Shown here piece after piece: positions 3,231-28,103 of a stretch of DNA of 38,149 nucleotides. How positions within the stretch are numbered: position 1 is the first letter of the stretch; each line of letters opens with the position of its first letter. Under the pieces are notes generated by a model. The model saw nothing but the letters and a program-made list of their open reading frames with translations, ran no database searches and had not been told where the DNA came from. Both the position numbers and the translations under genes were made by a program. This DNA is from Neonectria sp. B-13. Taxonomy: Eukaryota > Ascomycota > Sordariomycetes > Hypocreales > Nectriaceae. The stretch lies in NCBI GenBank assembly GCA_002682825.1, contig NOKP01000071.1, positions 38,894 to 77,042 of the forward strand, written 5' to 3'.

Positions 3231-3241
3231 AGCACGCAGCC

Positions 3242-4934: not shown

Positions 4935-5127
4935 ACACATTATCTCCAGGGTGGTCATGTGACCACCTTGGTGGTCAACAGACAGCTCGCCTAACCCTTG
5001 CCGGCTGTAGCCCGAACAGGAAGGCGGTCAAGGAAAGGAGATATCCCCTGAACACCACAGAGATAGCCCAGGGGGGCAAGGACACAGACAATACAAGTTA
5101 TCTGAGTGCCACGCTAGCTTTCTGACA
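4935..5127 (+). repeat. LTR-like repeat, copy A
   Basis: This is one of four copies in the window. It shares ACACATTATCTCCAGGG at the start, the inverted repeat GGTGGTCA-TG-TGACCACC, and the end TTTCTGACA. The outermost ~18 bases seen in copies B and C (TGTTAGATTGGA) are diverged here. No target duplication is visible. It abuts a 17-bp piece of pogo transposase sequence and then the left end of the hAT element. Confidence 0.8.
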
Positions 5128-5144
5128 GCTTAAGCAGCGCTCCC

Positions 5145-8608: not shown

Positions 8609-8798
8609 GTCAGAAAGCTAGCGTGGCACTCAGATGACTTGTATTGTCTATGTCCTTGCCCCCTTGGGCTATCTCTGTGGTGTTCAGGGGATATCTCCTT
8701 TCCTTGGCCGCCTTCCTATTCAGGCTACAGCCGGCAAAAGTTAGGCGAGCTGTCTGTTGACCACCCTGGAGATAATGTGTATATAATCCAATATAACA
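8608..8798 (-). repeat. LTR-like repeat, copy D (inverted)
   Basis: Complement of the repeat at 4935 and 26706. It starts TGTTATATTGG in its own orientation and ends CTGACA. A 20-bp stretch between two GGTGGTCA direct repeats, present in the other copies, is missing, as expected from slippage or recombination. The flanks are not a 5-bp duplication. The TG...CA ends support an LTR, probably solo. Confidence 0.78.
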
Positions 8799-8904
8799 TG
8801 TCTGTCTCGCTCGCTTATCATGTACGTTAGGTTTATTTTAAGTAGGGTTTATTTTAGACATAGGTAGTGTACTACTGTACGTAGTCGTGAATGTAATTCA
8901 TCGA

Positions 8905-9146: not shown

Positions 9147-10374
9147 ATGTCTCATTCCGATCTTTTAAAGAACCTCAATCTCTTCCACGATGCCAGAGCG
9201 TGTGTCTATCTGTACCCGAGATGAATGCAAATTCGCATTATCCAACGGGCCATCACGCGTAACGACACATCTTCGCGATAAACACAACGTCTCTACTGAA
9301 GCAAGGAAAGGGCTAAGTCGAATTCTCAGGTCCCTATCTCCACCTAGCCTCCTGGATCCCGACGAGGCACCACCCCGAGCCGATGGATCTACCGAGCACG
9401 ATAAGCTGCGAGTCTACGAAGGCTTCATCTGCCTCCACTGCCAATTTCGTATCATCAGTATTTAGTTGATGCGGCGCCATATATCCAGCCCGCCGAAAGA
9501 CTGCCGCCTGAAAGCTAGTCATGGCCGCCCCCGTCGCCGTCGCGATCTTGACCAGCAGTTCGAAAGCGTATACCTACAGACATGGACGACCGGGTCGGCC
9601 CGGAGATGCTGGATCATCGAGCGAGACGGAAGTGTTATCCGGCCAATGGACGGCCCGGCGGCCCAGTCGCACCTGCAAGCCGTATTCACACGGGAATTCG
9701 ACCGACGTGGGCAGCAGGAGACCGAGCTAGCGCCAGCTCCGCAGACTGGAGCAGCGGACATGACGGCATTCGCACTACAGCGGCCCTGGATGGAGAGAAC
9801 CTGCTGGGACCGGACGTATAGCGATAAGGGCCGCCGCCAGGTACTCGCAGCCCTGATCCAGACCTCTACCCATCTAGGTGGACGGGAGTACCTCATCGGA
9901 CGACGCGGAGTATGCGGGCTTAATGAAGATCTCATAAGCCCAAGCAGAGACGAAGAAAGGATCGCCTCACTTGTTCGTCTTACTGACGTAATGATGGATC
10001 GGTGTGAGGAGACGGCAAGGAAGACGAGCCGACATATCCTCTGCTGGCTCCGAAGCACACAGGTGTCATCGATATACGGCAAGCCCTTTGCGCTCGTTCA
10101 GCATCCATCATCGTCGGGCAAGTATCGACTCCTCCTTAAGCGATGTCTAATGATGGTCCTTCGGCTTTACCGGATGCCCCCTGACACCCGTATGCAGGCT
10201 GCGGGCCTGATGCTGAATAGGAAGCAGCTGCAGTTCCTGGATGCGATCTGGAACCATGAGGCGGTGAAGGACTTAGCTACTATGCCTGTCTTTCTGCTTC
10301 GGAATATTCCATGCTTGCCCCGACGTGGCACTTTCTGGAGGCCGCATCATCATTTTCTGGGCAAGAAACACTGA
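9147..10374 (+). pseudogene. OrsD-type zinc-finger N-terminal part of a recombinase-like protein
   Basis: ATG at 9147 opens a short frame (LLKNLNLFHD) that must shift near 9190 to continue into ICTRDECKFAL...HLRDKH. That is the first Cys/His finger of an OrsD-like (formerly DUF3505) domain. A second finger (FICLHC) follows. TAG at 9463-9465 interrupts the frame where Gln is plausible (ISI*LMRRH). The frame then stays open to 10374 and aligns by eye with residues about 150-400 of the intact protein at 18532, for example KYRLLLKRC...LNRKQLQFLDAIWNH. It ends before any recombinase motif. The first ~60 residues resemble the truncated leader at 18092. This is the decayed N-terminal half of a gene, possibly once joined to 11141-14863. 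Confidence 0.65.
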
Positions 10375-11140
10375 TCTGAATAGGGGGTAAGTTATCGGAT
10401 CTCTTGCGCTTTAGCTGCCTGCACTGAGAGTGCTCCTCCTCCTGTAAATAGATTTACTGACGGACTCGTCTGCGTTACCACCGACCGCCTTGTTGTCTGG
10501 CATATGGTGAAAGGTATTGCACCTCGCAACTGGTCACTCTTAATATCGACGTGGGCCGCTCTTGTATATTTGGCACGGAAGAAGTATGTATTAGAAGTAG
10601 TAAATGCCTCAGGATGTACCTAGACGCCTTCGAGTTTGTTAGCGAAGAAGACCGCCGAAGAATGACGGAGCAGGCGCTGTGGCTTGTTGCCGGCCTGTAG
10701 CCACGCGCGAAATCGTGAACAGAAGGTCGAAATAGCATGCCAGACGTGGGATGCAAGTGACAGCCTTCTTAAACGTTCACCACACCTCGGCAGCATTAGA
10801 TGCTCTGCTCTGCATAAATGACCCTCACATGCATCATCTGCAAATATACTTTTCGTATGGTACCCGTACATGTCCTCAGTGGCAGGGCTGCACCCCGGAA
10901 TGAGTATAATCGAACGCTCTATTTACAACTCCAGCAGGCTGATCAGTAAGACGTGTCAGGGTCCACGCACGCAACGAAGTCTGGTGTTCCGCAGCCCCAC
11001 GAAGCTCTTCGGTACGAGCCACGTCAGCTGTTTGTTTGACGCGTCAAACTGCTACGCGGTTCCAGGGTGCCTTGGGGCATTCTCAGAGCGGCTCAGCCAC
11101 GAAGTTGGGCGTACAACGCAGAGGCCATTCGCAAGCTTAG
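10375..11140. other. No coherent gene; decayed OrsD-gene remnants near its right end
   Basis: No continuous frame with family motifs is seen. From about 11030 short pieces in shifting frames (for example RPFASLV before 11150) resemble the region just before the recombinase-like part of the neighbouring gene. This end is therefore probably a frameshifted 5' portion of 11141-14863. Bases 10400-10950 show nothing I can identify. Confidence 0.35.
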
Positions 11141-14100
11141 TTCGCGCTTGTGTGTGCAGCAAACTCATTCACATTAGGCCTCAATAGCTTAAGATCGTGC
11201 GTGTCCTTCTGGGCTTTGAAGAATGCCTTGCTAGAGCCGGACATTCGGGAGAGGTTGACCGGGATTCGGCTGAGGAAGAGGCTCTGTAGGCTCTTGGAGC
11301 TGATATGGAACCATCCAGCATGGGTTACGCCCGCTCCTTGTTCTCGGGAGCCTATTGTTCGTGACTCAGCCTTCGAGGATGATGACAGTGTTAGCGAGGG
11401 CGAGGATTCCGATGAGGGCGAGAATACCGATGAGGGCGAAGAAATCGATGAAGAAGAAGTCGACGAGGACGAAGGTGAGGATGAAGACGAGGACGAAGAC
11501 GAAGACGAAGACGAAGACGAAGACGAGGAAGACGATGAGGAAAACGATGAGGACGATATCTTCACGGATGATGGGCAGTCTGAAGACGCCTGGGAGCTGC
11601 AAGAAGAGGAGGCCGAGAGACTCTATGGCGGACCTGCTCAGTTTACTGCCACAGAGAAGAAGCACAGAAATGAGGCGATGAGCAAGGAGGACACTGAAAC
11701 CCTCGTCGAGCTCCTCTTCGGCCTCAGCCTAGCCCTTTGCACCGAGCCTCTAGTGGATAGTCAGCCTAGCTCGACCATACTTGTCTATTTCAGCGGCATA
11801 CTAGGTTTCTCGACAACCACGCCAAACCGAACCCTTCCCGCTCGCATCTACACGAGCCATCTCTCCGCTCTCCTCTATATCCAGAGGCTCCTCTTCCTCG
11901 AGCAGGCGCTTCCACTTCGGTCATACCCTACACTCGGAATCAAACGTCGCCCACGTACTATGCAGCTGGACCGGTTCCAGAAGATCCGTCAGCGATACAT
12001 GGTCCTTGGCTCCCAATCGGCCTTTGAGGAGTTCCTTTCCCTCCGCAGCTATGGGCGAGTAATGGCCCAGTCCGATACACCGGCGACACTCCTGAACTGG
12101 AGTGAGGACAACCAGACTGTGTCCTGGGGAGAGGAGATGCAGCTCTCTATGGGCCAGTTCCGCCGGCTGCCTGAGTATCTCATTGAACAGGCCAGCGGCC
12201 TCTGTGACGAGCTGATGTATGGGTGGGAGCCTACCGTCGATCTCACGGGGATCAAGGATACAATATCCAACTGTGACGGTGGCTATTCCTTCGTCAGTGA
12301 CCCTAGAAACAAGCTTGGTCGGGCATACCTTAAGCTGTTCCAGCGCGCTTGTATCGCTCGGCAGAAACCCCTTTACCGGAAAGGCTACTGGGACAGGCAG
12401 GCAGTGGCTGAATACCGGAAGAAGGAGGAATCCTTCCGGAAGTATCTAGGGCTGGCCATGTACATCACGGGCGGCCAGCTACCAAGATGGCCTGAGCTGC
12501 TTAGTCTGTGGTGCGAAAACACCGAGTTTGGGGAGAGGGGCATTTATGCATACAAGAGGTCTTTGGTTTATGTGGCCCGTCACCATAAGGCAAAGAGGTC
12601 TACGAACCGGGAGTTCATCGTGGCCCGCTTCCTGCCGGCTGAAGTTGCACATCTTGTCTATAAGTACTGTGTATACATCCGCTGCCTTATTAACCTATTG
12701 GATCGGGAGTGTGAGCTGGCTAGCTATGGCATCTCAGGAAGCTCTCCTCTTCTCTTTCGAGTAAGCTCAGCGCCCAGGAGCAAGCCGTGGCAGACTAGCC
12801 AGGTCACTCGAATCCTCAAAGAGGCCACTACAAAGGTATGGGGCTACCCGGTCCACTCCCAGCTGCTCCGCCAGCTATGCATCGGCATAACAGAGAGGCA
12901 TGTGCGTGAGGTACATCAATCCTTCAACCGGTTCGATGATACAAGCGACAAGGCACATCGCAACGTTGTGTTCGCCTGGCAGAGTGGTCATCGTCCCCTC
13001 CAGCGGGCCATAACATATGGTCTTGATGGGGCTTTCCCGACAAAACTGCAGCCCCAGCTCCTGGAGCTCTACGAGTGGGCATCTATGAAGTGGCATGAGT
13101 TTCTACATCTACCTAGTAAGCTAGCTAGTCTACCTAGCGAGGGGACTAGCAGTAGCCATCGACTGGCCTGGTTATCGACCACAGGCCAGCCAGCGCCCCT
13201 ACAGGCAGCCCAAAGGCAGAAGCGCAAGCGCAAGCGCGATGACGATGACGAAGGAGCAGAAGCTGCCATTGGGCAGCAGGCAATCACAAGGAGACAAGAG
13301 CCCCTACTGACCCAACCCTTGTTCGGCTGCCTAAGTGAAGCGGAATCGGTTGGGGCAATTCAAGAGCAGCGCTCCCTCGTCCAATTCCTTCACAAGTACC
13401 AAACCACCGAGGCAAACAGATTTGGTCGGCAAGATCAACTAGCCCGAGTGGTCGAGACAGTGGAGTGGTGGGGGCTGGTAGGATGCCAGCTCTGCTTCGC
13501 CGCGACAGGACAGCGTGAGCCTGATCACGATATACACTCATGCAAGCGCGGTGTTGATAGTGAAAGGGCTAGGCTTCTCCTTCGATGGTTGGAAGGTTTA
13601 GACATACCTCTGTCCCATCACCCTCGGCGTCGAGGCGATTGCAGTATATGTGCACCATTCTACCCGTGCCGTGAGGTGGCTTATGGTGTCCATAAGGCTG
13701 AGGCTAGATCGCCGGGCAGAAAGGCTTATTGGACCAAGCAGTTTGAGGAAAAGCCCGGTCCAGATGGCCATTGCGAGCATAGACCTCTTATCCGACAAGC
13801 CATTGCTGCTCTTTGCACATATGACAATCAATTTCTCGGGAAACTCCTTACGAAATTGGCTTCTGATCGAGATAATCTCGACCTAAGCAGTAAGGTTGAT
13901 GCTCGAAAGTGGTTCGAGCAGCTGGCACAGATCCCACACTGGCGCTTCTGGAACATTCTCCAGATTTACGAATCCCTCATTCGTGCATTCTATTTCCGCC
14001 GGAATCAAAGCTTAGGGCGGGAGCCCTTGTGCGGGTTTCCTGATGAGCCGCCTGGGGACATGTCCTACAGCCTAGATTTGGAAGTAGACTTTCCAAGTTG

Positions 14101-14863
14101 GAACGACTCAAAGGAGGTGGACAGATGGCAGGCCTCGCTTGACTGGTGGGTTGGCAAGTGTAGCTTTTGTGCAGGCCGTGGCCTGGTAGGCCAGCATATC
14201 CTGCATACTCTGCGAGAATGCGAAAGAGGCGGTGCGGCCAAAGTAAAGAGCGAGCTTGGCATTGCTATGTATTACGATGGAGTCCTCCCGTCGAGTGGAT
14301 GCAGGAACTGCCATGTCCCGTTTGACTTCTGCAACAGCTGGGCTAGGGAAGAAGGTGGAGAGTGGGCAATGGCAAGGCCAGACCGTCTACAATGCCAATA
14401 TGGTCCATATCTACTCGCGGATACCATCATTGGATTGTTTCACTGTGGGAAGAGTGAGATCCAGCAGAGTTTCCTTGACGAAGCTGAAAAGTATTGTGAA
14501 GCTCATGACTTTCAGATGGACTTTGACGGGGAAACGGTAGCTTGCAGTCTATCACAGTGCATCACTGTCGCCGGAACGAAGGGTTCAGAGATGATTCGCA
14601 CACTAGCAGTGTTAACAAAACCAATGCGGGCTATGACTGGAGAGGGCAACCAGGGAGTTGTAGATTGTCCCATGGAAGAGAGGGGTTCATGTTCTACATG
14701 TCCTATTGCATGTGGTTCGTCCAAGGTCGGTCTGGGCATAAAGCTAGCTACTGGTGCTGGTGATGATGGTGATGAGGATGAAGAGGAAGAAGATGGGAGT
14801 GAGGATAGAGTTGCTGCATTTCTCCGCCGTCTTCACCGAGAAGATGAGCTGATGTTTGAATGA
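11141..14863 (+). CDS. Tyrosine-recombinase-like protein with Cys-rich C-terminal domain (5' truncated)
   Basis: An open frame of about 1237 codons, counted from 11150, with no early ATG; the first ATG is 11678. The N-terminal OrsD fingers found in its relative at 18532 are missing. In order: a KRC-like region (residues 15-60); an acidic Asp/Glu run (about 75-150); then a module with GGQLPRWPELLSL (near 445), RHHKAKRSTN (477), LRQLCIGITERHV (573-585) and QSGHRPLQRAITYGLD, giving GH-x8-Y at His614/Tyr623. These match the order Arg, Lys, helix Arg, GH...Tyr of tyrosine recombinases; that assignment is inference. The C-terminal ~350 residues hold CxxC pairs (GCQLC, GKCSFC, GCRNC) and LQCQYGPYL. 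The same domain type follows the RecQ part of the gene at 22331. If translated from 11678 it gives about 1061 residues containing the whole recombinase-like and Cys-rich parts. Confidence 0.7.
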   Translation, partial: FALVCAANSFTLGLNSLRSCVSFWALKNALLEPDIRERLTGIRLRKRLCRLLELIWNHPAWVTPAPCSREPIVRDSAFEDDDSVSEGEDSDEGENTDEGEEIDEEEVDEDEGEDEDEDEDEDEDEDEDEEDDEENDEDDIFTDDGQSEDAWELQEEEAERLYGGPAQFTATEKKHRNEAMSKEDTETLVELLFGLSLALCTEPLVDSQPSSTILVYFSGILGFSTTTPNRTLPARIYTSHLSALLYIQRLLFLEQALPLRSYPTLGIKRRPRTMQLDRFQKIRQRYMVLGSQSAFEEFLSLRSYGRVMAQSDTPATLLNWSEDNQTVSWGEEMQLSMGQFRRLPEYLIEQASGLCDELMYGWEPTVDLTGIKDTISNCDGGYSFVSDPRNKLGRAYLKLFQRACIARQKPLYRKGYWDRQAVAEYRKKEESFRKYLGLAMYITGGQLPRWPELLSLWCENTEFGERGIYAYKRSLVYVARHHKAKRSTNREFIVARFLPAEVAHLVYKYCVYIRCLINLLDRECELASYGISGSSPLLFRVSSAPRSKPWQTSQVTRILKEATTKVWGYPVHSQLLRQLCIGITERHVREVHQSFNRFDDTSDKAHRNVVFAWQSGHRPLQRAITYGLDGAFPTKLQPQLLELYEWASMKWHEFLHLPSKLASLPSEGTSSSHRLAWLSTTGQPAPLQAAQRQKRKRKRDDDDEGAEAAIGQQAITRRQEPLLTQPLFGCLSEAESVGAIQEQRSLVQFLHKYQTTEANRFGRQDQLARVVETVEWWGLVGCQLCFAATGQREPDHDIHSCKRGVDSERARLLLRWLEGLDIPLSHHPRRRGDCSICAPFYPCREVAYGVHKAEARSPGRKAYWTKQFEEKPGPDGHCEHRPLIRQAIAALCTYDNQFLGKLLTKLASDRDNLDLSSKVDARKWFEQLAQIPHWRFWNILQIYESLIRAFYFRRNQSLGREPLCGFPDEPPGDMSYSLDLEVDFPSWNDSKEVDRWQASLDWWVGKCSFCAGRGLVGQHILHTLRECERGGAAKVKSELGIAMYYDGVLPSSGCRNCHVPFDFCNSWAREEGGEWAMARPDRLQCQYGPYLLADTIIGLFHCGKSEIQQSFLDEAEKYCEAHDFQMDFDGETVACSLSQCITVAGTKGSEMIRTLAVLTKPMRAMTGEGNQGVVDCPMEERGSCSTCPIACGSSKVGLGIKLATGAGDDGDEDEEEEDGSEDRVAAFLRRLHREDELMFE
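11483..11530 (+). repeat. GACGAA hexamer run inside coding sequence
   Basis: Imperfect (GAC GAA/GAG) repeats encode alternating Asp-Glu in the acidic linker of the recombinase-like protein. A second acidic run lies near the C-terminus at 14770-14810. Length changes here would stay in frame in multiples of three. Confidence 0.85.
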
Positions 14864-15409
14864 AGAATGGCAGGAAGGATGGAGAGGGATAGAGATAGGG
14901 ATGGGGAGGAGAATGCCTGTTGCGATGACCCGTACAACCCGTGGTGAAGACCCGGTGCGAAGTCGCGGAAGCCGGGACCCGCAGTAAGTGCCACCGGGTC
15001 GTCTTAAAGGAGAGGGAGATAAGGCAGGGCCGGAGTGCAAACTGATGAAGAGGAGAAGATCCGTGGCGAAGGCCCGCTGCTTGGGACTTGGAACGTGGGT
15101 GTAGGACAGGGCCGGCGGTGAGGTCGGCGCCGGCGAGATTGGCGTCGGCGGCAGTGGGGCCGTAATGCGGCGCGTGGAAGGCCGGGCCCACTTTTTGGGC
15201 TGTAACAATGGCTTATGACTAAGCCGTGCCATGGCGGTATAGGAGGCCGGAGCCGGAGCGTGTTACGACGGTGCCGTAGAGTGGGAGGCTTCCGCTGGGG
15301 CGAGGAGACTGACGACGGGACCAGGCCAGGATGGAGTTGAGGCCAGGGATGCCACACGAAGCCGATCATTTTGCCGGTGGATTGCATACTTCGGTGTAAA
15401 GACACCACA
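14864..15409. other. No gene recognised, GC-rich
   Basis: Several short minus-strand frames overlap here (Pro/Ser/Arg-rich), but none has motifs, and they overlap one another in different frames. I see no basis for choosing one. Confidence 0.35.
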
Positions 15410-16010
15410 CAGGATAAAGCGGTCTTGAAACGGCAGAGCTAAAAGGAGGGAAACGGCGATTGTGCCAGTCTTGGCGGTGGGAGGGGCTTACTGTCAATGA
15501 TCACAGGTTGATCAAGGCGGAAAGATTCAATGATACATACAAGTTACTCTTAAAGGTGAAAGATGGCTTCTGTGACAGCAGTCTTCATCGTAGGACATAA
15601 GACAAGGAAACGACAGTTCCAAAATAAGGGACAGAATGAATAAAGTGAAAGAGATGCTGGCTACTAGGTGGCTCCATAGTGTAGGGTAGGGAGGGTTCAT
15701 ATAGTAGAATGAACGAGTGTTATAAAGATGAGAGGCTTTTGATGAAGAGGAACAGGAGAAAGCAGTCTTACAAAGGCAAATCTGGATGGAGGAAAACAGT
15801 GATTGTGCAAGCTATAAAGGTAGGAGCGGTTTTCATATAATGATTGTATGTTAATCAAGCAATCAAAAATAGATGATAATAAATATTATATATAAAAGAT
15901 GGAAATAAGCTACTATAACGGGAGTCTCAAATATAAGACACAAGACAAGAAAATAACAGCTTAAAGTAAGTAATAATATTGATAAAGGGAAAAGAATGCT
16001 AGCTAGGAAG
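15410..16010 (+). repeat. Two diverged direct copies (~260 bp, ~340 bp apart)
   Basis: A block at about 15410-15670 recurs at about 15750-16010. Shared landmarks in order are GGATAAAGCGGTCTT / GGAGAAAGCAGTCTT, the GATTGTGC block, GTTGATCAAG / GTTAATCAAG, GACATAAGACAAGGAAA / GACACAAGACAAGAAAA and AGATGCTGGCTA / GAATGCTAGCTA. The second copy has A where the first has G at many sites (G-to-A on this strand), consistent with RIP on the complementary strand. Confidence 0.65.
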
Positions 16011-16245
16011 ATAACCAGTAACCACTGACGTATGGATGGCCGCCGGAGGCATAGATGGGAAAGGGAGTCATACTAACCGCTAACCTCTGACGTGTGGATG
16101 GCCGTCGGAGGCAGAGGGAGGAGGGAGTACTAACCGCTGACACTCGGTTAGCCGCTGGATGCAGAGACTGAGGAGAGAGTAATAACCGCTGACACTCGGT
16201 TAGCTGCTGGATGCAGAGACTGAGGAGAGAGTAATAACCGCTAAC
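16010..16245 (+). repeat. 52-bp tandem repeat array
   Basis: TAACCG starts recur at 16131, 16183 and 16235 with near-identical 52-bp units (CTGACACTCGGTTAGC, GCTGGATGCAGAGACTGAGG). More diverged units precede from about 16010 (GTAACCACTGACG, CTAACCTCTGACG). The function is unknown. Confidence 0.8.
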
Positions 16246-16269
16246 CTGTCGGAAGAATAGCACAGCGAA

Positions 16270-16292
16270 GGCTGCGGCTGCGGCTGCGGCTG
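16270..16292 (+). repeat. GGCTGC microsatellite
   Basis: Nearly four head-to-tail copies of GGCTGC directly downstream of the 52-bp array. Confidence 0.8.
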
Positions 16293-16980
16293 GAAGTTTC
16301 TTGGATAATCTTTTCCGTCTCAGATCAATTGCTAACATGAAAAGCAGCTCCAAGCCTGGATCCGAGACCCGCACAAATTATAGCTGCAGAGAGACCTGAA
16401 CTCACTCATTGAATATGGAATGGATAAATTCCGAGAACGGGGCAAGGTCAGAAGAGTCGAATGATGGGCGACCGTGCTCTAGTGCGGCTTGGTAGGCAAT
16501 GCTGGTGCAGGCGAGGGAGCAGATGAGGCAGCATATTGAAGGGAAGAAGGGAACGGCCATATATTGGGGGCGATTATTAGAGGAGATGGGTGAGTACAAG
16601 ACACGCCTAGGCATTATAAGACTTTATATGAATAACGCTGACTTTGTTAGTGGACGCATGGTTCTATTAGAGAGTAAGTATATGGAAAGTCTAAGCGGAC
16701 CGTCGAAATCAATATAGCCTTGTGGATTCGACAAAACATTGCGAGTGTTTACTGTCAGGCTTCCTAAAGCTCAAGCCAATAAAAGCACACAATAGTAGGA
16801 CATAATTTCCAGTAAAACAAACAATAACTGCACAGAACTGAGAAGGAGACATCTCCCCATGCCGACTAGCCATGCCGACCGGGAACTTGGCGAAGATACA
16901 GGAATGTGAATGGCGTCGTTATTATTACCAACATACCATAGCGATGGCAGCTGTGAGATATCGGTAGGCCATACGCTCCT
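16293..16980. other. No gene recognised
   Basis: Only short frames without motifs are present on either strand. Nothing I can support. Confidence 0.35.
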
Positions 16981-17608
16981 TTACTTCGATGATGAGCGGC
17001 TCGTGTTGGCTTCGGTGGTTATTGGTGTTTTGAGTATACTCTTGCGGACTTTGGAGGGATGTAAACGGCTGATAGGGGAACGGAGGGTAGCTGTTGGCAT
17101 GAAGTCAGATCAGAGCAGGGAAAGAAGGAAACCAGGTTGAGGAAAGGCATACCAGATGTTGATTCGGTGCGGATGAAGGTTCTGGTGTCGTGGGAACGGG
17201 CAGTACAAGCAAGCAATAACAGCTTCCGGGTAAAGAGAGAGCAAGCACCGAGAATAGCGACATAGTCATGATGGGTGTCGGATGAGACCCCAGTTAGAGT
17301 AAAGACGCGGTTGTCGTCTTGCAGGAGGGTAGCACCAGTAGCGTGGGCGACGCTTGGAGCGGCATTAGTGACGAGGTGATTCCAGGAATCGAAGTCCGGT
17401 TGGAGGAGAGCAGAGAGAGAGGCTAACTCGTCGGACCTGATGGCAATTAAGGCGGCCAGGAAGGTCTGCCTGGCGGTACGGAGGGCTGCTTGAAGAGAGA
17501 CAGTACCAGCGGTGTACTCAGGGGTTGTGAGGAAGGAGGTGGAAAAGCGGAGAGATGGTGGCTGGATAGAGGCAGCGATGGAAGGCGGACAAGAGCCTCG
17601 ATCGAGAA
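16981..17608 (-). CDS. Uncharacterised two-exon reading frame (5' end unknown)
   Basis: On the minus strand a frame is open from about 17608 to 17153. It continues after a good intron at 17091-17152 (GTATGC donor, CTGAC branch, CAACAG acceptor) and ends at TAA 16981-16983. The product is about 188 residues. It includes AALRTARQTFLAALIAIRS, LLQPDFDSWNHLVTNAAPS, FTLTGVSSDTHHDYVAILGA and a basic Ser/Thr-rich tail. I do not recognise the family. No ATG is found at the 5' side before a TAG near 17625, so a first exon further upstream, or 5' truncation, must be assumed. Long open coding plus an in-frame intron argues against chance, but only moderately. Confidence 0.4.
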
Positions 17609-17696
17609 GAGCCTACTGTACAAAGGCTACTGTACAAAGGCTGTGCTGTATTCTGTCGTTTTTTTGTGTTCTGTCGGCACTTTTTAACAAGACCCA
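17609..17696. other. Short spacer with CTACTGTACAAAGG direct repeat
   Basis: CTACTGTACAAAGG occurs twice in tandem at about 17611-17640. No gene is seen. Confidence 0.6.
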
Positions 17697-17792
17697 CCGT
17701 CCGTGCACCTCGTTTTGCCTCGCCAACACAACAATTCCGTCCGTGCACTATGTTTTACCTCGCTCGCCAACATAATAATTCCGTCCGTGCAA
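17697..17792 (+). repeat. CCGTCCGTGCAC ~40-bp tandem array upstream of OrsD leader
   Basis: CCGTCCGTGCA recurs at 17697, 17737 and 17781, separated by related CTCGCCAACA(C/T)AA(C/T)AATT spacers, giving units of about 40-44 bp. The core CCGTGCAC is the same as in the array at 8905-9003. Both arrays sit upstream of an OrsD-type start (18092 and 9147). Confidence 0.75.
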
Positions 17793-17794
17793 CC

Positions 17795-17818
17795 CTCTCT
17801 CTCTCTCTCTCTCTCTCT
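17795..17818 (+). repeat. CT dinucleotide microsatellite
   Basis: Twelve CT units in a row, directly after the CCGTGCAC array. A pyrimidine tract in this position is common in fungal promoters. Confidence 0.9.
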
Positions 17819-17904
17819 AGACATGTACATCCACTTTCCGCAATCTCAAACCTGACTGATAGAAGTAGCTATACACCTTCCTTTAATCAAGCTTGATTAA
17901 AGCT

Positions 17905-18064
17905 ATAGGCATCTTCCTTCAAGCAGTTGCGTTTGAAATCCTACTACCAATCTTTCCTCATGCTCATGCAGCCACATTTGAGATTATACTATCTTTCTTC
18001 ACGCAGCTGTATTTGAGATTCTACTATCTTTCTTTATGCAGCTGTATTTAAGATTCTACTATTT
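17905..18064 (+). repeat. Four-copy degenerate ~38-bp repeat in leader region
   Basis: Units built on TTTCTTCA-GCAGCTGTATTTGAGATTCTACTA occur near 17910, 17957, 17993 and 18031. They become more alike toward the start codon at 18092. They may be part of the promoter or 5' leader of the truncated OrsD gene. Confidence 0.65.
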
Positions 18065-18091
18065 TATACTTTCTCTCTAGTTCTCTCCACT

Positions 18092-18300
18092 ATGTCTAAC
18101 CACTTTACCTTCCACTCGCCTACACCCTCTCTCTCCTCCCCCTCCTCGACCGCGTCAATAGCACCAACAACTCCGCTCGAATCGTTAGCCCATCTAGGAT
18201 TATGGGTTGACCTACAATCCAAGCTGCTCATCTGTACCCAGCCGACATGTAGATATGCCCTTGGCATTAGTCCAACCTACTCAAGTATTAAAGACAGGAA
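18092..18300 (+). pseudogene. Truncated OrsD-type N-terminus
   Basis: ATG at 18092 opens a frame with a Ser/Pro/Thr-rich start, then LWVDLQSKLLICTQPTCRYAL. This matches the first half of the OrsD-like finger in the pieces at 9147 (ICTRDECKFAL) and 18532 (ICTLCGYAL). Similarity ends near 18290, before the His pair of the finger, and the first GGGCCC palindrome begins at 18299. It looks like the remaining 5' end of a gene whose body was replaced or deleted. Confidence 0.6.
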
Positions 18301-18422
18301 CGGGGCCCGTTCCGTGTTTTGAGCCAATCACATACGCTAAAATGGACAAGGATCGCTCTGTTTCGGAACGGGGCCCGTTCTGGTTTTTGACTCTCAACAG
18401 CAAACGCGAAACGGGGCCCGTT
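18299..18422 (+). repeat. Three AACGGGGCCCGTT near-palindromes
   Basis: The 13-mer lies at 18299, 18367 and 18410. Flanking bases differ between copies but stay self-complementary (GGAAC...GTTCC; GGAAC...GTTCT; CGCGAAAC...GTTTTCGCG), so dyad symmetry has been kept while sequence changed. They sit between the truncated leader and the intact gene at 18532. They may be a protein-binding site, a recombination junction or a hairpin; the sequence alone cannot decide. Confidence 0.75.
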
Positions 18423-18531
18423 TTCGCGTCGCGGTAGACCGTGCCAACCTTGCTAAGTCCATTGAAACCACTTTCCCTTTCCCTTTTCCTGTTTGGCACG
18501 TGTTAACTCATATGAACAACTGACATATACA

Positions 18532-21500
18532 ATGAATGGAATTCATCAAGAAATCTCACTAAGCCTGGATCAATACTCCAGGCTGGAGAAGCTTCATCTT
18601 CACTTCAATCTACCAGAGAAGGCCATTATCTGCACGCTATGTGGCTACGCGCTCGCGGCCGACAACGATCGTGTCGGGCGGCATCTCGGTGAAAAACATC
18701 ATATTTCCAAAGCAGCTCGCCACAAGTTAAATGCCCTGGTTAACTCGCTCAATCTCCCTAACCCTAATACCCTTCCCAAGCGACTAGATGGCTCTTCGCC
18801 ACATCCTCATCTACGAATCCAGGATGGTATGGCCTGTAGACACTGTGGTCTTCGCTCTACAAGCTCGGATGTTCTCTCCAAGCATATGAGGGCGTTCCAC
18901 AAGCCAGAACTTGCCAATGCGAGAAGTGGTGGGAAGCATTGGTTACGAGATCACATCATTGACAATCTCTCTTTACAAAGCTGGACACTAAGCGATATCA
19001 AACGGGCTTGGGTCGTTACAGCACCTATCAGTGCAGGAGTGACCGGGAGCCAATCTAGTAACAAACCGCTACAGCCAGCGCCAGATTCCATACAGTATTT
19101 TGCCAATCAACTACTGGACGAAGAACGGAAACGCCTGGGTCTGCAGTCTACATCAATCCAGTTACCAGCAGGGGGAGACATCGCGCCGTCGCAAGCATTA
19201 TTGACAAACTGGATGCGCCGAACAGGCTGGGAGCGAACGTTTGAACGCGCAGATTGTCCGATACTCATATCCCTCTCGGCCCTGCCCACGACGCTATCGG
19301 GGACCGCAAACTATTTGGGCACACATAATGGACAGAAGCTCCGCAGCTCGGCTGTAGATGAGTATAAAATCTTATCTATTGTCACTGCTCTTGACCGGCT
19401 TTTCGACCTATGTGGTGAGACAGTGAGATTCACGGACGTCAGCGTTCGGCGATGGCTGCGTGGCCGCTTTCCGGACCGTCCTTATAAGGCCCCGTTTGAG
19501 CTCGTATCTCAGGCTGGGTCTGAGCGGCTATACAGGAGCGAATTCAAGCGTTGTGTCTGCTTTTGGCTACGTGTGTTGAGACTGCCACTTGCCGTCTCTC
19601 GGTCTATCATAGGCCGCTCCTTGTCAAGGCCTCAACGAAGGATGTTAGAAGAACTCTGGCTTGACTCTTGCTGGGATGAAATTAACAACGAAGTTGATGA
19701 TATGGAAGATATAGCTGGGGGTTCTCTCGAATATTTGCGTGAAAGAAATCTTGGGTCTCAGCCCAATGAAGAGGAGGAGGACGAAGGGTCAGGATTAGGG
19801 GATGAGAACATGTCTGAGTTTTCTGAATATGGGAGCGCAACTAGCGAGGCATCAGACACAGAAAATTCAGGCGATGAGGAATGTGACCCTGGAAGCCAGT
19901 GGGCTGGAGCCTCTAGTTCCCGAGGCTATATGGGAGATGGAAACAGTACTAACACTCACACATCTAACTTAAGACGGACGGACGACAGTTGTGATCGATC
20001 TGTGGATGCAGTACTGCGATTCTGTTACCAGATGGTCACTGAGGATTTCGAAGACGGCATGTCAAGCTCGACCTTACTCGTTTACTTTAGTGCCGTCCGG
20101 GGACTCTCCAGCCAAGAAGGGAACGGATACTTGCGACCCGCCCGCTATACCCCCATACTCTCTCGATTAATCTATTGTACGCGGTTGATATTTCTTGAGG
20201 CTATCCTACCTCGGCGTGCTCACACCTATGCCGGATTCGCCGCAAGACCCCGCTATGGTCAGCTCGCAGCCCTTAACGCCATTCGTGTCAACCATATGTG
20301 TGATGGTACTATGTCACCGCTTGGCGAGTTCTTCAGTCTCTTGGCATACGGAATGACCCTTCAGCGGAGTGAGGGTCCTGTATATCATTTTGAGTGGAGT
20401 GAGGATGGACAAAAACTCTCGTGGGATGGAAATACGCAGCTGTCTATGGGACAATTTCGCAGCCTAGCCTACGAGGCATTTCGCCAAGCCACTGTCCAGT
20501 GTCAGCGTTTGATGTACGGCTTCGAATCAGAAGATCCGGACATGGGAAGCTTACGCGATAGGTTATCGAAGACGACTCCTGGGTATTCCTTCCTCACGGA
20601 TCCTCAAAACAAGCTGGAGGAGCTTTACCTAACTGTCTTCATGCGGGCCTGTACAGCCACTGTGGATGGTCTCCTCAAAACTCAACAGCGTGACTCTCTG
20701 AGTAGCTGGGACATTGATGCGGCGCAAGCATATCTTCACAGTCACGATGCCCTTCTCAAGACACTCATGGTTCTAGGGCAGCTAGACAGTGGCCAGGGTG
20801 CGCGAGTCTCGGAGCTTCTTACTCTCGAAGAGAAAAATACAAGATCGAGGCTCAGAGGTATAGGGATTTTTGGTGGGCAGATGTTTTCAGTAACTCGCCA
20901 CCACAAGGCTCGTCTATCCACAAATAGTGAGTTCCAGGTCGCAAGGTTCTTCTCTCCGCAAGTCGCCGCGCTACTGTATAGGTATCTTGTCTATATACGG
21001 CCGACGGCATATGCTATCTTGCGTCGATGTTTCGGACATGAGCCGCAGAGGACCCTTATCTTCACGCCAGTCTCGAAAAATACAAAGTGGACCACCAAGG
21101 TTTTCACAGAAGAGCTAAAGCGGTTGAGCCGAGATGCCTTGGGGGCTCATGTGGATATCGGCGTGCAGCTATATCGTCAGCTATCAATTGCCATTACCGA
21201 GCGGCATGTACGCGGGGCTCTCCCGACCTTCAACCGTTTTGATGATGTGACTGCAGCAGCTGATCCGGACGTCGCCTTTGCATGGCAGAGTGGTCATCGC
21301 CCCAAGCAGCGGTACATAAATTATGGCTTGGATGGGGCTTTTCCGGATAAGCTACAGCCATCGCTGCTTAGGATATATGCAAGCTGCTCTGCGAGGTGGC
21401 ATAAATTTCTTAGCATCGGACCTGAAGTACTGTCTACAGGTAATCTCACCCCCTTACTTCCTGGCTCGTATGCCACAACGTTAATACGTACCGTAGGACA

Positions 21501-22188
21501 AGATATAAGCCCGAGAAAGAGACAGCAAACGCCCACACTTGCTGTAGACCAGCTAAGCTCGAAACGTCAACGGCTGGAGGGGAACTCGACAGCAAGTAGG
21601 GAGGTAATGCTGTCGAGCCCTGCATCAGTCCCATCACAATCGAACACAACCAAGTCAACATGTCTAGTCGTTCGCAGGGACGAGGATCATGAGCCTGAAA
21701 CTCCAAAACTCAAATCGTATGGTATATTTGTGCACCTGGCAGAGTTTGGTTTACTTGTCTGTCGCATCTGTCAGTGCGCAGTCTTTACAGATGAGGTCCC
21801 TACACATTTACGTCGCCCGAGGCATATTAGCAACTTTACAGCCCGTGAGAGACGGGAGCTGATTTCAAGCCTTGACCAGGTGCCAGGCTTATTACAATCT
21901 CGAGGTGCTGAACTTGACGTCAAACGGCCGCCAGTAGACAGCCAGCCAGTGCCGTTCATAAAGCCTCCCCAGCACGATGGGCTTGGCTGCAGTCTATGTA
22001 CATATGTAGTACGTGCAGAACGCCGCATGATGGAACACTATAGGAAGGAGCATCAATGGGTTAATGATCGGAGAAGGGGGGGTCGCCACGATAAAGGATT
22101 AGATCGTCCTTGGAGGAAAAATGTTATTTGCCAGTACTTCTTCCTCAACTGTACAGGTTGGGGCTGGTTTGAAGTATGCCGTACATAG
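18532..22188 (+). CDS. OrsD / tyrosine-recombinase-like / OrsD protein, intact (1218 aa)
   Basis: Start chosen at ATG 18532; the frame also extends upstream without ATG. N-terminus: OrsD-like double finger (IICTLCGYAL...HLGEKH; MACRHCGLRS...HMRAFH), residues about 35-125. Then an all-helical-looking region, an acidic linker (about 415-480), and the recombinase-like module: GQGARVSELLTL (Arg758), RHHKARLSTN (Lys792), LYRQLSIAITERHVRG (Arg882), AWQSGHRPKQRYINYGLD (His922, Tyr931). C-terminus: a second OrsD-like pair (LVCRICQCAV...HLRRPRH; GCSLCTYVV...HYRKEH), about 1074-1170. The order of conserved residues fits a tyrosine recombinase, which would cut and rejoin DNA in the nucleus; that role is inferred. 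No introns are needed and no stop interrupts it, unlike its relatives, so this is the most likely active copy. The YR-RecQ gene follows about 150-200 bases downstream in the same orientation. Confidence 0.8.
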   Translation: MNGIHQEISLSLDQYSRLEKLHLHFNLPEKAIICTLCGYALAADNDRVGRHLGEKHHISKAARHKLNALVNSLNLPNPNTLPKRLDGSSPHPHLRIQDGMACRHCGLRSTSSDVLSKHMRAFHKPELANARSGGKHWLRDHIIDNLSLQSWTLSDIKRAWVVTAPISAGVTGSQSSNKPLQPAPDSIQYFANQLLDEERKRLGLQSTSIQLPAGGDIAPSQALLTNWMRRTGWERTFERADCPILISLSALPTTLSGTANYLGTHNGQKLRSSAVDEYKILSIVTALDRLFDLCGETVRFTDVSVRRWLRGRFPDRPYKAPFELVSQAGSERLYRSEFKRCVCFWLRVLRLPLAVSRSIIGRSLSRPQRRMLEELWLDSCWDEINNEVDDMEDIAGGSLEYLRERNLGSQPNEEEEDEGSGLGDENMSEFSEYGSATSEASDTENSGDEECDPGSQWAGASSSRGYMGDGNSTNTHTSNLRRTDDSCDRSVDAVLRFCYQMVTEDFEDGMSSSTLLVYFSAVRGLSSQEGNGYLRPARYTPILSRLIYCTRLIFLEAILPRRAHTYAGFAARPRYGQLAALNAIRVNHMCDGTMSPLGEFFSLLAYGMTLQRSEGPVYHFEWSEDGQKLSWDGNTQLSMGQFRSLAYEAFRQATVQCQRLMYGFESEDPDMGSLRDRLSKTTPGYSFLTDPQNKLEELYLTVFMRACTATVDGLLKTQQRDSLSSWDIDAAQAYLHSHDALLKTLMVLGQLDSGQGARVSELLTLEEKNTRSRLRGIGIFGGQMFSVTRHHKARLSTNSEFQVARFFSPQVAALLYRYLVYIRPTAYAILRRCFGHEPQRTLIFTPVSKNTKWTTKVFTEELKRLSRDALGAHVDIGVQLYRQLSIAITERHVRGALPTFNRFDDVTAAADPDVAFAWQSGHRPKQRYINYGLDGAFPDKLQPSLLRIYASCSARWHKFLSIGPEVLSTGNLTPLLPGSYATTLIRTVGQDISPRKRQQTPTLAVDQLSSKRQRLEGNSTASREVMLSSPASVPSQSNTTKSTCLVVRRDEDHEPETPKLKSYGIFVHLAEFGLLVCRICQCAVFTDEVPTHLRRPRHISNFTARERRELISSLDQVPGLLQSRGAELDVKRPPVDSQPVPFIKPPQHDGLGCSLCTYVVRAERRMMEHYRKEHQWVNDRRRGGRHDKGLDRPWRKNVICQYFFLNCTGWGWFEVCRT

Positions 22189-22330
22189 CAGAAAAGGAAA
22201 TTCAGATCAACGCATGAACATCAACCCACCCCAACAATAAGGCATACATACTAACAATATTATTATCAAGTTAGAAAACCACACTAGACCTTACTATAGT
22301 GCTTTCTGCCCATATACTTCAGCGAGGTGC

Positions 22331-25300
22331 CATGGCGTGCCGGGGTCCAGAGCCAGCGGGTAGTTTGAGGTCAGTTTCGGAGCGCCAGGCAGCCAGACGG
22401 CCGACGAGGCAGCCGTGATGGAGCGTGCGATTTGGTTCATGGAGCAGAAGCAGCAACAGTTCGAGTTAGAGGATAAAGAGTGCATCAAGGCGGCCGATGC
22501 CAAGACAGACGCCAATGCGTGGTTGGAGCACGTCGGGTGGGCGACCCATTTAGAAGGATTCGACCCGGAAGTGATGCAACGGTTGATCGATCCGGTAGGC
22601 GAGCAGGAACACGCATTGCAGTTAATACAGGACAGTTTACTGCAGGTGATGAACTGAGCACGCGCCATAGCCACGCCCGCACAGGTAGGGAGCCAGGCAT
22701 TATTCGAAGTGCAGAGGAAGGACGTGGATAAGAAGCCGAGGCGGCCGTTCGACAACCGAATGGAAAACGATACGTGGGCCCGTTATACAGCCGTGTGGAC
22801 CAAGTTGATGTGTTACATATACCGCGCCGATACCATGGGGGATGATGAGAGGCCCGGTTTCCGATTATCGAAGCAGCAGAGCGAGCCATTCGATGAGTTA
22901 ATCGAGATAGTCGAAGCACATGTTAACGATCCCGATACGCAGTCGCTGGAAGAAGACCGAGTGGATATGTTGACATTGCAGGTAGTGATGGCATTATTAG
23001 ACCATCGTTTAGCAGCTGGGGAATATCGCAGCGCCATTATCAGCGGATTGGCGGTGATGGGTATCCGAAAGGATGGTGGTTGGATGGATGTGTTGGATTA
23101 CACGCCCATATATTCCGCCGTCATCAAGATCGCCCGGGCCATGGTCGTGTACCAATCGTATATGGAGAGACAAGCCGAAGTAGCTCAGTTGAAGCATATC
23201 AAGATGGACGAGCAGCGGCAAGAAGAGGATTCATCCGATGAGAGAGAAGCTCAGGAGGAGGCGGAAGAGGAGGCCACGAGCATGTTCTGTATTGTATGTG
23301 GGAAGGTGCAGCGGTTCATGACGGTCACGTCAGGTAACGCCAAGGCCGAGCCAACGCCAATGGATTGGATATACGAGGCATGCATGTACGGAATGCATAT
23401 ACGATTCAATACACCAGCCGGCGGGACAATCGATTGGGTTGGCGACCGCATCAAGCACCGCCGGGTGCAATTCCGGATGGGCGAGTTGACAGAGATGTTA
23501 CATTCGTTGAAGGATGAAGCACGAGGGTTGTTAGTAACATTGACTGTGGTGGATGACATCAACCAGTTACCGCGGATCCCGTGGTCGTCATTTGAAGATG
23601 ACCACAGCGAAGACAGAGTGGGATATTCATTTTTAGAAGACGACTGCAACCGGACGTGGTTAGAGGCGGGCAAGAGTTGGGTCATATAGTGAATCACTGA
23701 TTCGCAAAGCCGTCGAAAGATTTGGTTCGACCACGGGAGGGAAGATGGAAAGCCGTTCCGAGCCAGAGCGGTACAGTCGTACGATCAGACGTTAAAAGAG
23801 TTGATAGAAAGAATGTTTTTATTAATGCATATGGCATCCGGTCAACCAGCGCGGGCCACCGAGATTTTGAGTATCCGATATAAGAACATGATGAACGGCG
23901 GCATACGTAACATATTCAGGCACAGCGGTTTGATATATTTCGTCACATCATATCACAAATCATTCCGAGCCACGGGGCAGGCCAAGGTTATCCATCGATA
24001 TTTACCACGCAAGGTAGGCGAGTTATTGATGTAGTATTTATGGTTAGTGTTGTCGTTTTAGCAGCAGGTGCAGGGCATTATTAAAGATGCCGGCATACAC
24101 AGCCCGTATTTATGGCCAGATGAGGTGGTTCGCAAGGGGGAGATTAGCGAGACCAAGCAAAGGGAGAGAAGGCAGGCCGAGATGGAGACCGGGAGCGAGG
24201 ATGACGGGATCGGCAGTGGTAGTGGCGGTCGTGGCGATGACGATGATGGTGGTGATAACAATATGGGTTTGGATATCAAGTTTGAAAGATGGGTGGAGGA
24301 GCGTAATTGGACATCAGACCGTGTCCGTCGAATCATCCAACGGAACAGCCGACGATTATTGGGCACGATGTTGAACATCAGTTCATGGAGGCAAGTTTCC
24401 GTGGCCATAGCGCGTCGGTATTTAAACGGAGCATTTAAAGAGTCGACGTTGGATGAAGACGAAGACGATAATATAGAGGACAGCCCGGTCGATTTACAAG
24501 CAGGTCATGGAACGCACGTGGCCGGCATGGTATATGCACGGGAGATGCAGCAAAGGTTATTCAGCACGGCAACGATGCGTGACAAGTTCCGGTCAGTCAG
24601 CCGCCAGTGGCATTGGTTATTGGAGTTCTAGGATGGCGATAAGGTTATGGGCAGAGTCGGCGGTGCATGGCGGCGAAAGCGAGAGCGGGAGCCATTCGAG
24701 ACAGAGCAGGAGCATAACCAATTGCAGCGTTTCAGATAGATACAGCAAGTTGACATCGCCGGCCAATTGAGGCAGATGTTAGGTCCGGATACGTCGTTCC
24801 GTGGCCAATAAGAGGCGGTGATCCGGGCCATTATGCGGGGCGAGAGCCCCATCGTGCAGATCGCAGGCACAGGAGGGGGCAAGAGCATGTCATTCATGTT
24901 GCCGGCGTATTGTTCCCATGACAGCGGAGGCGTTACCATTGTGGTCGTGCCGTTGGTATCGTTGCAGGATGATTTACATCGGCGTTATGCCGAGTGTCAG
25001 ATCGAAACATACATTTGGGACAGTCGTGGTGGGCACCAGATCGCCCCCATCATTTTTGTAACGCCAGAATCGGCCGTGACAAAAGGGTTCGGCGAGTTCG
25101 TGAACCGATTGCAATCACGAAAAGTGTTGGATTGTGTAGTGGTGGACGAGTGTCATGCCATTTTGGATAGTACCAACCATTTTCGGCCGCAGTTGTTGGA
25201 GTTAGGCCGAATATTGAGTGGATGGGGCGTCCAAAGGGTGTTTTTGACAGCCACATTACCACTAGATGAAGTCGGGAGATTTTTTGAGGTCACGGGTTTA

Positions 25301-27028
25301 TCGGCAAGCCGTGTGAGGTTATTCCAGTCACAAACAACGAGGCCAAATACCGGGTATAGGGTAGTCGATGTACGGCCACCACCAAAACGCAGAGGTCAAT
25401 GCAGGCAGGGGCAGCAGAAGAGAAAGGGGCAGGACGGCGATGATAATCAGATTGGGGAATATGAGGAGGCGGAGGATAGCCACACCGTCAAGATCGTATG
25501 TGAGTGGTTAGACAAAAACAATCATGGTCGAGTTATTGTTTATGCCAGCACCATCGACCGAGTGGAACGATTGGGGCGTTTATTGGAATGCAGTGTATAC
25601 CATTCCAAGGTTGATACGACATTGGGGAAAAGACAACGACTAAGGTCGTGGATGGAATAAGGCCATTTAATCGTGGCCACAAATGCATTGGGATTGGGGG
25701 TCGATGTGCCAGACATGCGGTTGGTTGTGCATGCCGGAGTGCCGAGTCGATTGCGAGATTATATACAAGAAAGCGGGCGAGCCGGGCGGGATGGGGGGCA
25801 GAGCGAGGCCGTGGTTGTTATATGTCAGCCAGAAGGTAAAGCAGATAGGCAGCCGTCATCATCGTCGATTAAGGCAGGGGCGGGAAAGAAGGCGGCAGTA
25901 TCATCGTCTAAATCCAATTGGCCATCAAGGGAGGCGGCGGTCAAGCGATTCATCAGCGGGAAGTGGTGTCGCCAGGTGGTTTTAGATCAGGTGATGGATG
26001 GCCAATATGATCGGGCAGGTTGCCGGTCCGAGTCGGAAGTGGGATGTGATGTGTGTAAGCGGCAACGAGAACGAGTAGAGTTGGAGGATGATATATCATG
26101 GATCGAACGAGAGGGCAATATGGAAATGGCGGAAGAAGTAGAAGGAAGGCAGGAGAGGGAAGAGATGAGGGCGGATGATATTGTGGAGCAATTTGAAAAG
26201 GCATAACGGAATAACCGATACGAGCAGTTTAAAGCAAGACAAGAGGAAGTGCAGGAGAACGAAGAAGCCAAGCGGTTTGAGGAGGTTTTGGAATTTATAG
26301 TCAGTCGATGTATTGGGTGTTTTATAGCGGTAGGAAAGGTTGAGGATAACCAGATTCACATAAGGGAAGAATGTCTAGTGCGGGATAAAGAGTGGTGGAG
26401 ATGAGTGGAACGAAGTGAAGTGGAAGGGCAGGAGGGGATGTTTAAGAAGGGTGTGATGGGAAAGTTTTCAAGGTGTTTTTGGTGCAGGTTGCCGCAAGCA
26501 ATTTACATACATTGGGAGGCATTAGGTGATAATCAGGGGTCATTTAAGTTGCGGAAAGATGGATAGTGCCAGTATGCCGGATTATTAGTAAGTGTATGGG
26601 GAGCGGCAGGTGTAGGGTATGCCGGCTAAGTGGAGGAAGTAATTGGTAATATAGATATAGAGCAGGTGTATGATTGGCAAGATGCAGAAGATGAGACGAT
26701 GTATATGTTAGATTGGATTGTGTACACATTATCTCCAGGGTGGTCATGTGACCACCTTGGTGGTCAACAGACAGCTCGCCTAACCCTTGCCGGCTGTAGC
26801 CCGAACAGGAAGGCGGTCAAGGAAAGGAGATATCCCCTGAACACCACAGAAATAGCCCAGGGGGGCAAGGACATAGACAATACAAGTCATCTGAGTACCA
26901 CGCTAGCTTTCTGACAGTATAAGGCAGGGTTTATGAAGTGGTTAGGAGAGACAGTTCAATGGGGACCGTTTCAGACAAGCAGGTTTTATCAAGGCAGTTA
27001 TAGAATAGTAAGGTTAATTATAGGATAG
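22331..27028 (+). pseudogene. Tyrosine-recombinase-like / RecQ helicase fusion, 14 in-frame stops
   Basis: One frame can be followed for 4.7 kb with no frameshift. Order: a region near 22415-23690 with a CxVC motif (FCIVCGK); recombinase-like motifs SGQPARATEILSI (~23840), SYHKS (~23945), SWRQVSVAIARRYL (~24385), QAGHGTHVAGMVYARE (~24500, GH-x8-Y); then RecQ helicase motifs FRGQ (motif 0), AGTGGGKS (Walker A, ~24865), VVDECHAI (DEAH-type box, ~25140), FLTATLP (motif III), ATNALGLGVDVPDM and QESGRAGRDG (motif VI, ~25770); and a C-terminal Cys-rich part (CIGC, RCFWCRLPQ, CQYAG). Stops: 22361, 22655, 23687, 23690, 24032, 24059, 24629, 24737, 24809, 25658, 26204, 26402, 26564, 26627. LTR-like copy B interrupts at 26706 and keeps frame. 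RecQ genes of this kind are known near fungal telomeres. Leucine is nearly always TTA/TTG, unlike the neighbours. The 5' end is uncertain. Confidence 0.8.
26706..26916 (+). repeat. LTR-like repeat, copy B, with 5-bp target duplication
   Basis: Begins TGTTAGATTGGATTG and ends TTTCTGACA, i.e. TG...CA with imperfect inverted ends TGTTAG/CTGACA. It is flanked by GTATA at 26701-26705 and GTATA at 26917-26921. This is the clearest copy and reads as a solo LTR of a retrotransposon. It sits inside the 3' part of the YR-RecQ gene; the 216-bp gain is a multiple of three. Confidence 0.88.
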
Positions 27029-27608: not shown

Positions 27609-27817
27609 TGTTAGATTGGACTATGTACACATTATCTCCAGGGTGGTCATGTGACCACCTTGGTGGTCAACAGACAGCTCGCCTAACCCTTGCCGGCTGT
27701 AGCCCGAACAGGAAGGCGGTCAAGGAAAGGAGATATCCCCTGAACACCACAGAGATAGCCCAAGGGGGCAAGGACAGACAATACAAGTCATCTGAGTGCC
27801 ACGCTAGTTTTCTGACA
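27609..27817 (+). repeat. LTR-like repeat, copy C
   Basis: Starts TGTTAGATTGGACTATG and ends TTTTCTGACA; nearly identical to copy B. The flanks (ACATC before, TCTAT after) are not a clean 5-bp duplication. Related GCGGGCAA sequence lies on both sides, so local rearrangement is likely. Confidence 0.82.
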
Positions 27818-28103
27818 TCTATCTATTTTCAGATACATAGGGCCTTCATTCAGCCAATCATTAAATTTCGCGGGCAAGATTTATCTATTTTAAGCTAGTG
27901 CAGAACTACCCCCCTGGATCTTACGTAAAGCATATTACGATGCAATGCATTGAATAGATCGCATGATCTGAGTCGCGCCTGTCCTCTGCTTGAGAATCCT
28001 GCCTGATTCACGTCCTGTTATTTGCACCGCCTAAGCACCTAAGAATCACCCCCAATTCATATGCTGTTATTTATACCTCGTACTATCATATACTAGATTT
28101 AAT
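27818..28103. other. Leader of the AT-hook gene, no separate gene
   Basis: No independent frame is seen. It contains two related CACC-TCATGCTGTTATTT-type blocks (near 28010 and 28060) and presumably the promoter of the downstream gene. Confidence 0.4.

Follow-up and report, generated by a model that had tools for sequence, protein, structure and literature searches.

Long-unexplained helicase genes close to chromosome ends are on record from many fungal species. In Colletotrichum higginsianum, repeats with a helicase and a DUF3505 (OrsD) domain lie at all 24 subtelomeres in one orientation (PMC5576322; papers cited here by PMC number are drawn on in excerpt), and in Ustilago the OrsD-bearing UTASb lies either close to telomeres or on the 5′ side of UTASa, which carries RecQ (PMC10532341). 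Here we describe a stretch of 38,149 nucleotides from Neonectria sp. B-13 (the window), which forms the end of one contig (NOKP01000071.1, our C96) in a host assembly of 60.9 Mb in 123 contigs. Three neighbouring genes of the window, A, B and C (Table 1), share a module with the active-site residues of tyrosine recombinases, and in gene C this module is in frame with a RecQ-type helicase. We put at roughly 55% the reading that A, B and C, with RecQ, form a recombination system that is likely to spread and remodel repeats near chromosome ends.

Gene C is a member of the known telomere-linked RecQ helicases (TLH; UTASa of Ustilago, DHX_G198 and related repeats of C. higginsianum), which have the RecQ core in common with it and resemble this family also in the DUF3505/OrsD domain and the bias to chromosome or contig ends. 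What the excerpts do not name in them, and what is seen here, is homology to a predicted tyrosine recombinase in the stretch that separates OrsD from RecQ. An earlier note on this DNA could match it to no named element; this does not hold for gene C, as OrsD-helicase subtelomeric repeats have been reported (PMC5576322). The recombinase part goes unmentioned in the excerpts. Those of PMC4522978 mention no recombinase domain in TLH proteins; nor do those of PMC10532341 and PMC5576322, two papers in which the word itself was not searched for; and in the excerpts of the F. oxysporum FoTeR/TLH paper (PMC12857005) neither 'recombinase' nor 'OrsD' occurs. Our search of papers, as distinct from database assignments (InterPro superfamilies), found none that joins OrsD, or a telomere-linked helicase, with a tyrosine recombinase, and the sole paper combining RecQ, tyrosine recombinase, transposon, fungi and telomere is, by its listing, on a bacterium. 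The domain may already be flagged in databases, for example in InterPro superfamilies.

Genes A, B and C share a module with tyrosine recombinase active-site residues

Arg, Lys, Arg and GH...Tyr occur in this order in all three genes, as first noticed in the earlier note, and at similar spacing: for A, B and C, 34, 34 and 35 residues separate Arg from Lys, 94, 90 and 144 Lys from the second Arg, 40, 40 and 39 this Arg from His, and 9 in each case His from Tyr. Genes A and B are 37% identical over 673 aligned columns (E = 5e-107), and the spaced motif is present in both but did not turn up in any of 2000 shuffles of either one, the pattern having been composed after the sequences were seen. Profiles of B-type and C-type proteins (54 vs 65 proteins) align with a probability of 100% (E = 5e-62; 788 columns including OrsD and the module), and the module only with E = 2.5e-32. 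By these sequence comparisons, A, B and C all carry the module as a single homologous domain. All three genes stand where the earlier note had placed them, but they are not the whole family in the window, since the N-terminal half of a fourth, broken member precedes gene A.

To follow the residues into distant relatives we used alignments with rows drawn from the best 120 of 217 (B-type) and the best 120 of 393 (C-type) matches and reduced to <80% mutual identity, which left 54 B-type rows (P0103 left out) and 65 C-type rows (11 of 75 non-redundant proteins left out, P0124 added). Conservation proved high at the expected positions: 50 of 54 B-type rows have all five residues of Arg-Lys-Arg-His-Tyr (the others being P0004, P0061 with a gap, P0085 and P0112), as do all C-type rows except P0130 (64/65). 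Averaged over each full alignment with gaps counted, column identity is 17% and 28%, respectively. A Glu 3 residues past the first Arg, the position of Cre E176 (PMC12506042), is also kept (52/54 B-type; 64/65 C-type). The HxxR His, a residue common among tyrosine recombinases without defining them, is not: C-type rows have Ser in 58 of 65 cases, and B-type rows mostly Gln (37/54) or Arg (14/54).

The fold of the gene B module is predicted to be that of a recombinase

An AlphaFold2 model of a gene B segment matches tyrosine recombinases, with Cre residues 28-319 alignable and the Tyr loop of low confidence. A recombinase fold is predicted for the gene B module, and the modules of A and C would share it by homology; with the residues kept in distant relatives, the model favours the earlier proposal that the module is a recombinase. 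Neither outcome that the earlier note had named as refuting it, an unlike fold or poorly conserved Arg, His and Tyr positions, was seen. A structure search with a full-length C-type model returned result rows filled by RecQ.

Sequence libraries gave little. In Pfam at E<=1, no integrase matched A, B or the four pieces into which gene C was divided, and their relatives behaved alike; gene A matched zero families, in gene B OrsD alone passed its cut-off, and the gene C pieces matched DEAD and Helicase_C. In NCBIfam, C-type proteins matched helicase models, whereas gene A had two rows at chance level and gene B had no rows, and a sequence search of the PDB with gene B found nothing at E<=1. Against a narrow XerD/Fim profile, hhalign was not significant (P = 0.012 for B; P = 0.17 for C). 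No viral relatives emerged when viral contigs were scanned once with the C-type profile, and a viral structure search gave nothing below E 0.001, with an unnamed protein at rank 2 (probability 0.96) and nudivirus Vlf-1, which we take to be integrase-like, at rank 17. We note as an annotation trap that the C-type GH box GHGTHVAG (24506-24535) weakly resembles the subtilisin His motif.

Gene C is a broken telomere-linked helicase gene

Gene C is a broken gene. Its frame contains 12 in-frame stops (the last being the frame end) and follows closely on a further stop. No frameshift separates it from its relatives, which it matches at 68% over 1456 columns (P0123) and 85% over 1217 columns (P0125); the breakage is likely recent. 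The helicase retains a RecQ-type core (Pfam: DEAD, 4.3e-16; Helicase_C, 2e-9). The earlier claim that the module is fused to RecQ stands in that both share one frame and the fusion recurs widely, but gene C itself is not intact. OrsD fingers, present in many relatives, were not seen in gene C's own frame. We considered repeat-induced point mutation (RIP) as the source of the stops and set it aside: C:G-to-T:A change fits them, yet the composition indices are not RIP-like.

Domain architectures and the recurrent pairing of B-type with C-type genes

Profile search typed 237 of 241 proteins. RecQ is fused to the module in 112 of 120 C-type proteins, which comprise 64 with OrsD, tyrosine recombinase (YR) and RecQ (OrsD-YR-RecQ), 48 YR-RecQ, 5 OrsD-YR and 3 YR. 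The 117 B-type proteins, two of them the window's own, divide into 39 OrsD-YR, 29 OrsD-YR-OrsD, 28 YR-OrsD, 19 YR and 2 YR-RecQ. Missing domains carry little weight in these counts because the searches were length-limited and many of the proteins are fragmentary or come from incomplete gene models. One protein of 238, P0035, scores for both module types and may be a gene-model fusion. The sandwich of gene B's module between two OrsD-like fingers, first read from the sequence, is an architecture found in 29 of 117 B-type proteins. Gene B's closest 7 protein matches, among the matches listed, are 73-85% identical to it, and 6 of the 7 are named Fusarium. In gene A the module is followed, as had been described, by a Cys-rich region, for which 9 of 240 other proteins have a counterpart, 2 of these being C-type helicases with weak matches.

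Gene B lies upstream of gene C on the same strand. The earlier observation of a finger-bearing relative beside the recombinase-helicase gene extends to two other fungi, in which adjacent locus tags are B and C (FPOAC2_10245/10246 in Fusarium poae; CaCOL14_012794/012793 in Colletotrichum acutatum). Proteins P0108 and P0144, both from one C. fructicola strain, come from contigs of equal length, and on host contigs C4 and C101 a truncated gene, by best match of A/B type, precedes a C-type frame. The C-terminal OrsD of gene B matches the N-terminal OrsD of a C-type protein at 39% over 156 residues, and gene C starts directly past the expected end of its OrsD; this likeness and this start suggest that B and C may once have been read as one unit.

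Copies in the host genome are biased toward contig ends

We found 43 matching places in the host genome for B, 41 for A and 21 for the helicase piece of C, counts that include the window itself, mirror copies and split pieces and, on contig C1, probably the host's own RecQ. Family matches form 48 clusters on 36 contigs, and many copies are decayed. On contigs >=300 kb, 14 of 18 clusters lie <=100 kb from an end or scaffold join vs 12% expected (13 of 17 is the fairer figure, as one mirrored pair is counted twice). Helicase matches <=20 kb from an end mostly point toward it (11/13; p = 0.02), though two on C83 may be one gene and C4 places its match almost mid-contig. Gene C itself points toward a contig end 12.5 kb away, contig ends not being proven telomeres.

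The earlier note had also raised a self-moving or telomere-maintaining unit, and here our searches came back empty: they turned up neither an element boundary nor a target site nor an empty site, flank comparisons gave no constant pair of ends, and the 60.9-Mb assembly holds no run of TTAGGGx4. Telomeres of the assembly may have been trimmed or masked. Most matches of the A-B spacer and of the sequence downstream of C are to scattered repeats, with exceptions on C83 and C119. A 650-bp segment that precedes gene B (17627-18279) is present again on C83, 0.9 kb upstream of an A-type copy, and also elsewhere; on C119 a portion of the A-B spacer is found at a distance of 0.8 kb from a helicase fragment.

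Mirror-image copies occur on single scaffolds (C72, C87 and, by coordinates, others). They were considered as hairpin ends and rejected, since the two inspected centres (C72, C87) are 100-N joins, an assembly artefact. Separately, a 71-bp block (L043:7526-7596 and 7733-7803; L044:1782-1852) sits at the truncation point of A/B-type genes upstream of C-type ones and is 96% identical between the two loci, the remaining alignable parts being 64-70% identical. It looked like a possible recombination footprint but was set aside, with 5 match rows in all, its own included.

Comparison with known recombinases and transposons

The module resembles Xer and Cre in its predicted fold, in its Arg, Glu, Lys, Arg, His and Tyr, and in the 9 residues from His to Tyr, the same as from Cre W315 to Y324 (numbering from PMC12506042); it differs in the replaced HxxR His, the attached OrsD fingers and RecQ and the lack of a significant XerD sequence-profile match. 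Starship captains (DUF3435) are likewise fungal tyrosine recombinases, and in the captain of Sanctuary, whose R260, K308, Y424, R427 and Y458 align to Cre, the HxxR His is also missing, replaced by Tyr (PMC12506042). However, Sanctuary has Ala where the module keeps Glu, and PF11917 is absent from A, B and the four C pieces at E<=1, with 15 PF11917 match rows elsewhere in the host. Fungal transposons with helicases include AcademH, KolobokH and Helitron (PMC10799480), whereas A, B and the four C pieces contain no Helitron_like_N, PIF1 or DDE domain. Cryptons are fungal DNA elements with a tyrosine recombinase, but no additional DNA-binding family such as Cryptons carry came up in the Pfam scan of the three genes. 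We know of no Crypton with a helicase or OrsD fusion. In human TopI the catalytic His and Tyr are ~90 residues apart; the spacing of 9 in A, B and C sets them apart from topoisomerase IB.

A proposed recombination system at chromosome ends and its competitors

Given the shared active-site residues, the predicted fold of B and the in-frame RecQ, the helicase genes found close to the ends of fungal chromosomes likely represent combined recombinase and helicase machines, by which these ends would be moved or remodelled. OrsD zinc fingers would bind a subtelomeric site, B-type and C-type recombinases would use the conserved tyrosine for cutting and rejoining DNA, perhaps in a mixed tetramer in the manner of XerC and XerD, and the RecQ domain would open or extend the joined DNA, with the repeat copied or exchanged between ends. 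More tentatively, and at somewhat less than even odds, TLH genes and their OrsD companions may constitute an unrecognised class of element, a two-recombinase plus RecQ transposon at chromosome ends that would insert by tyrosine recombination and use its own RecQ for copying or exchange between ends. A recombinase-like domain between fingers and helicase, its active-site residues conserved, offers a specific, testable activity and may account for the copy number and the bias to ends. With it, the tyrosine-recombinase elements would gain a branch that bears a helicase, and one would read differently the OrsD (DUF3505) proteins, whose Pfam name refers to a secondary-metabolite cluster, in that the B-type ones look recombinase-like.

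RecQ helicases work together with a topoisomerase, and a module that cuts and rejoins could serve, with RecQ, a resident caretaker that resolves or promotes end-to-end recombination and is not mobile. The fusion of RecQ in 112 of 120 C-type proteins, the contig-end bias with outward orientation and the up-regulation of a TLH gene in Ustilago mutants without telomerase RNA (PMC10532341) are all in keeping with this; many decayed copies and helicase-less B-type relatives suit a proliferating element better, and the Cre-like His-Tyr spacing also speaks against it, so that we consider a caretaker rather unlikely. Diverged and mixed copies, together with the hAT remnants and a high-copy 220-bp repeat around the genes, are what ordinary subtelomeric expansion would leave, in which A, B and C would be passengers of homologous recombination and of other transposons and have no joint function. 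The return of B beside C in two other species and the OrsD common to B tail and C-type head make this quite improbable.

Distinctly unlikely, though less so than passive expansion, is a recombinase fold that is catalytically retired and serves as a mere DNA-binding part of OrsD and TLH proteins. The replaced HxxR His points that way, as do the low-confidence Tyr loop and the absence of any known site, but the five key residues are kept in 50/54 and 64/65 rows despite the low mean column identity. The GH box of C-type proteins might instead be a subtilisin-like protease motif, with the shared motifs not those of a recombinase; weak Peptidase_S8 matches (E 0.005 to 0.06) lie under the Pfam cut-off, the homologous A/B box SGHRPxQRxxxYG is unlike the protease motif and has no Peptidase_S8 match, and the predicted fold of gene B is recombinase-like. 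We give this explanation hardly any credence. A recombination system at chromosome ends remains our preferred reading.

Other features of the window

Table 1. Features of the window; codon positions give the first base.
Feature	Position	Strand	Details
Gene A, putative tyrosine recombinase with Cys-rich C-terminal region	11150..14863	+	open frame, 1237 aa
Gene A catalytic module	12485..13018	+	R446 to Y623; codons R12485, K12587, R12869, H12989, Y13016
Gene A Cys-rich C-terminal region	13355..14860	+	residues 736-1237
Gene B, OrsD - predicted tyrosine recombinase - OrsD	18493..22188	+	open frame, 1231 aa, first ATG 18532
Gene B segment modelled with AlphaFold2	19480..21492	+	aligned with Cre residues 28-319
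Gene B catalytic module	20803..21324	+	R771 to Y944; codons R20803, K20905, R21175, H21295, Y21322
Gene B C-terminal OrsD finger domain (PF12013)	21724..22056	+	resembles N-terminal OrsD of C-type proteins
Gene C, telomere-linked RecQ helicase, broken	22364..26566	+	single frame; N-terminal recombinase-like module
Gene C catalytic module	23852..24535	+	first Arg to Tyr; codons R23852, K23957, R24389, H24506, Y24533
Gene C RecQ-type DEAD + Helicase_C	24821..25795	+	two pieces divided by in-frame stop
Fourth family member, broken remnant	9178..10400	+	N-terminal half; end approximate
hAT transposase C-terminal domain	6602-8149	+
hAT transposase C-terminal domain	30010-30858	-
Two related open frames	28248-29477, 36030-37535		72% DNA identity over 300 bp; no Pfam match at E<=0.01
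HeLo domain frame	3146-3856	+
Ankyrin-repeat frame	2-583	-
Dispersed repeat, ~220 bp	4935-5134	+
Dispersed repeat, ~220 bp	8604-8799	-
Dispersed repeat, ~220 bp	26707-26926	+	GTATA on both flanks, by eye
Dispersed repeat, ~220 bp	27611-27830	+

The dispersed repeat (TGTTAG...CTGACA) is like a solo long terminal repeat (LTR) and has 45 other match rows in the host at 82-98% identity, mirror and window copies included.

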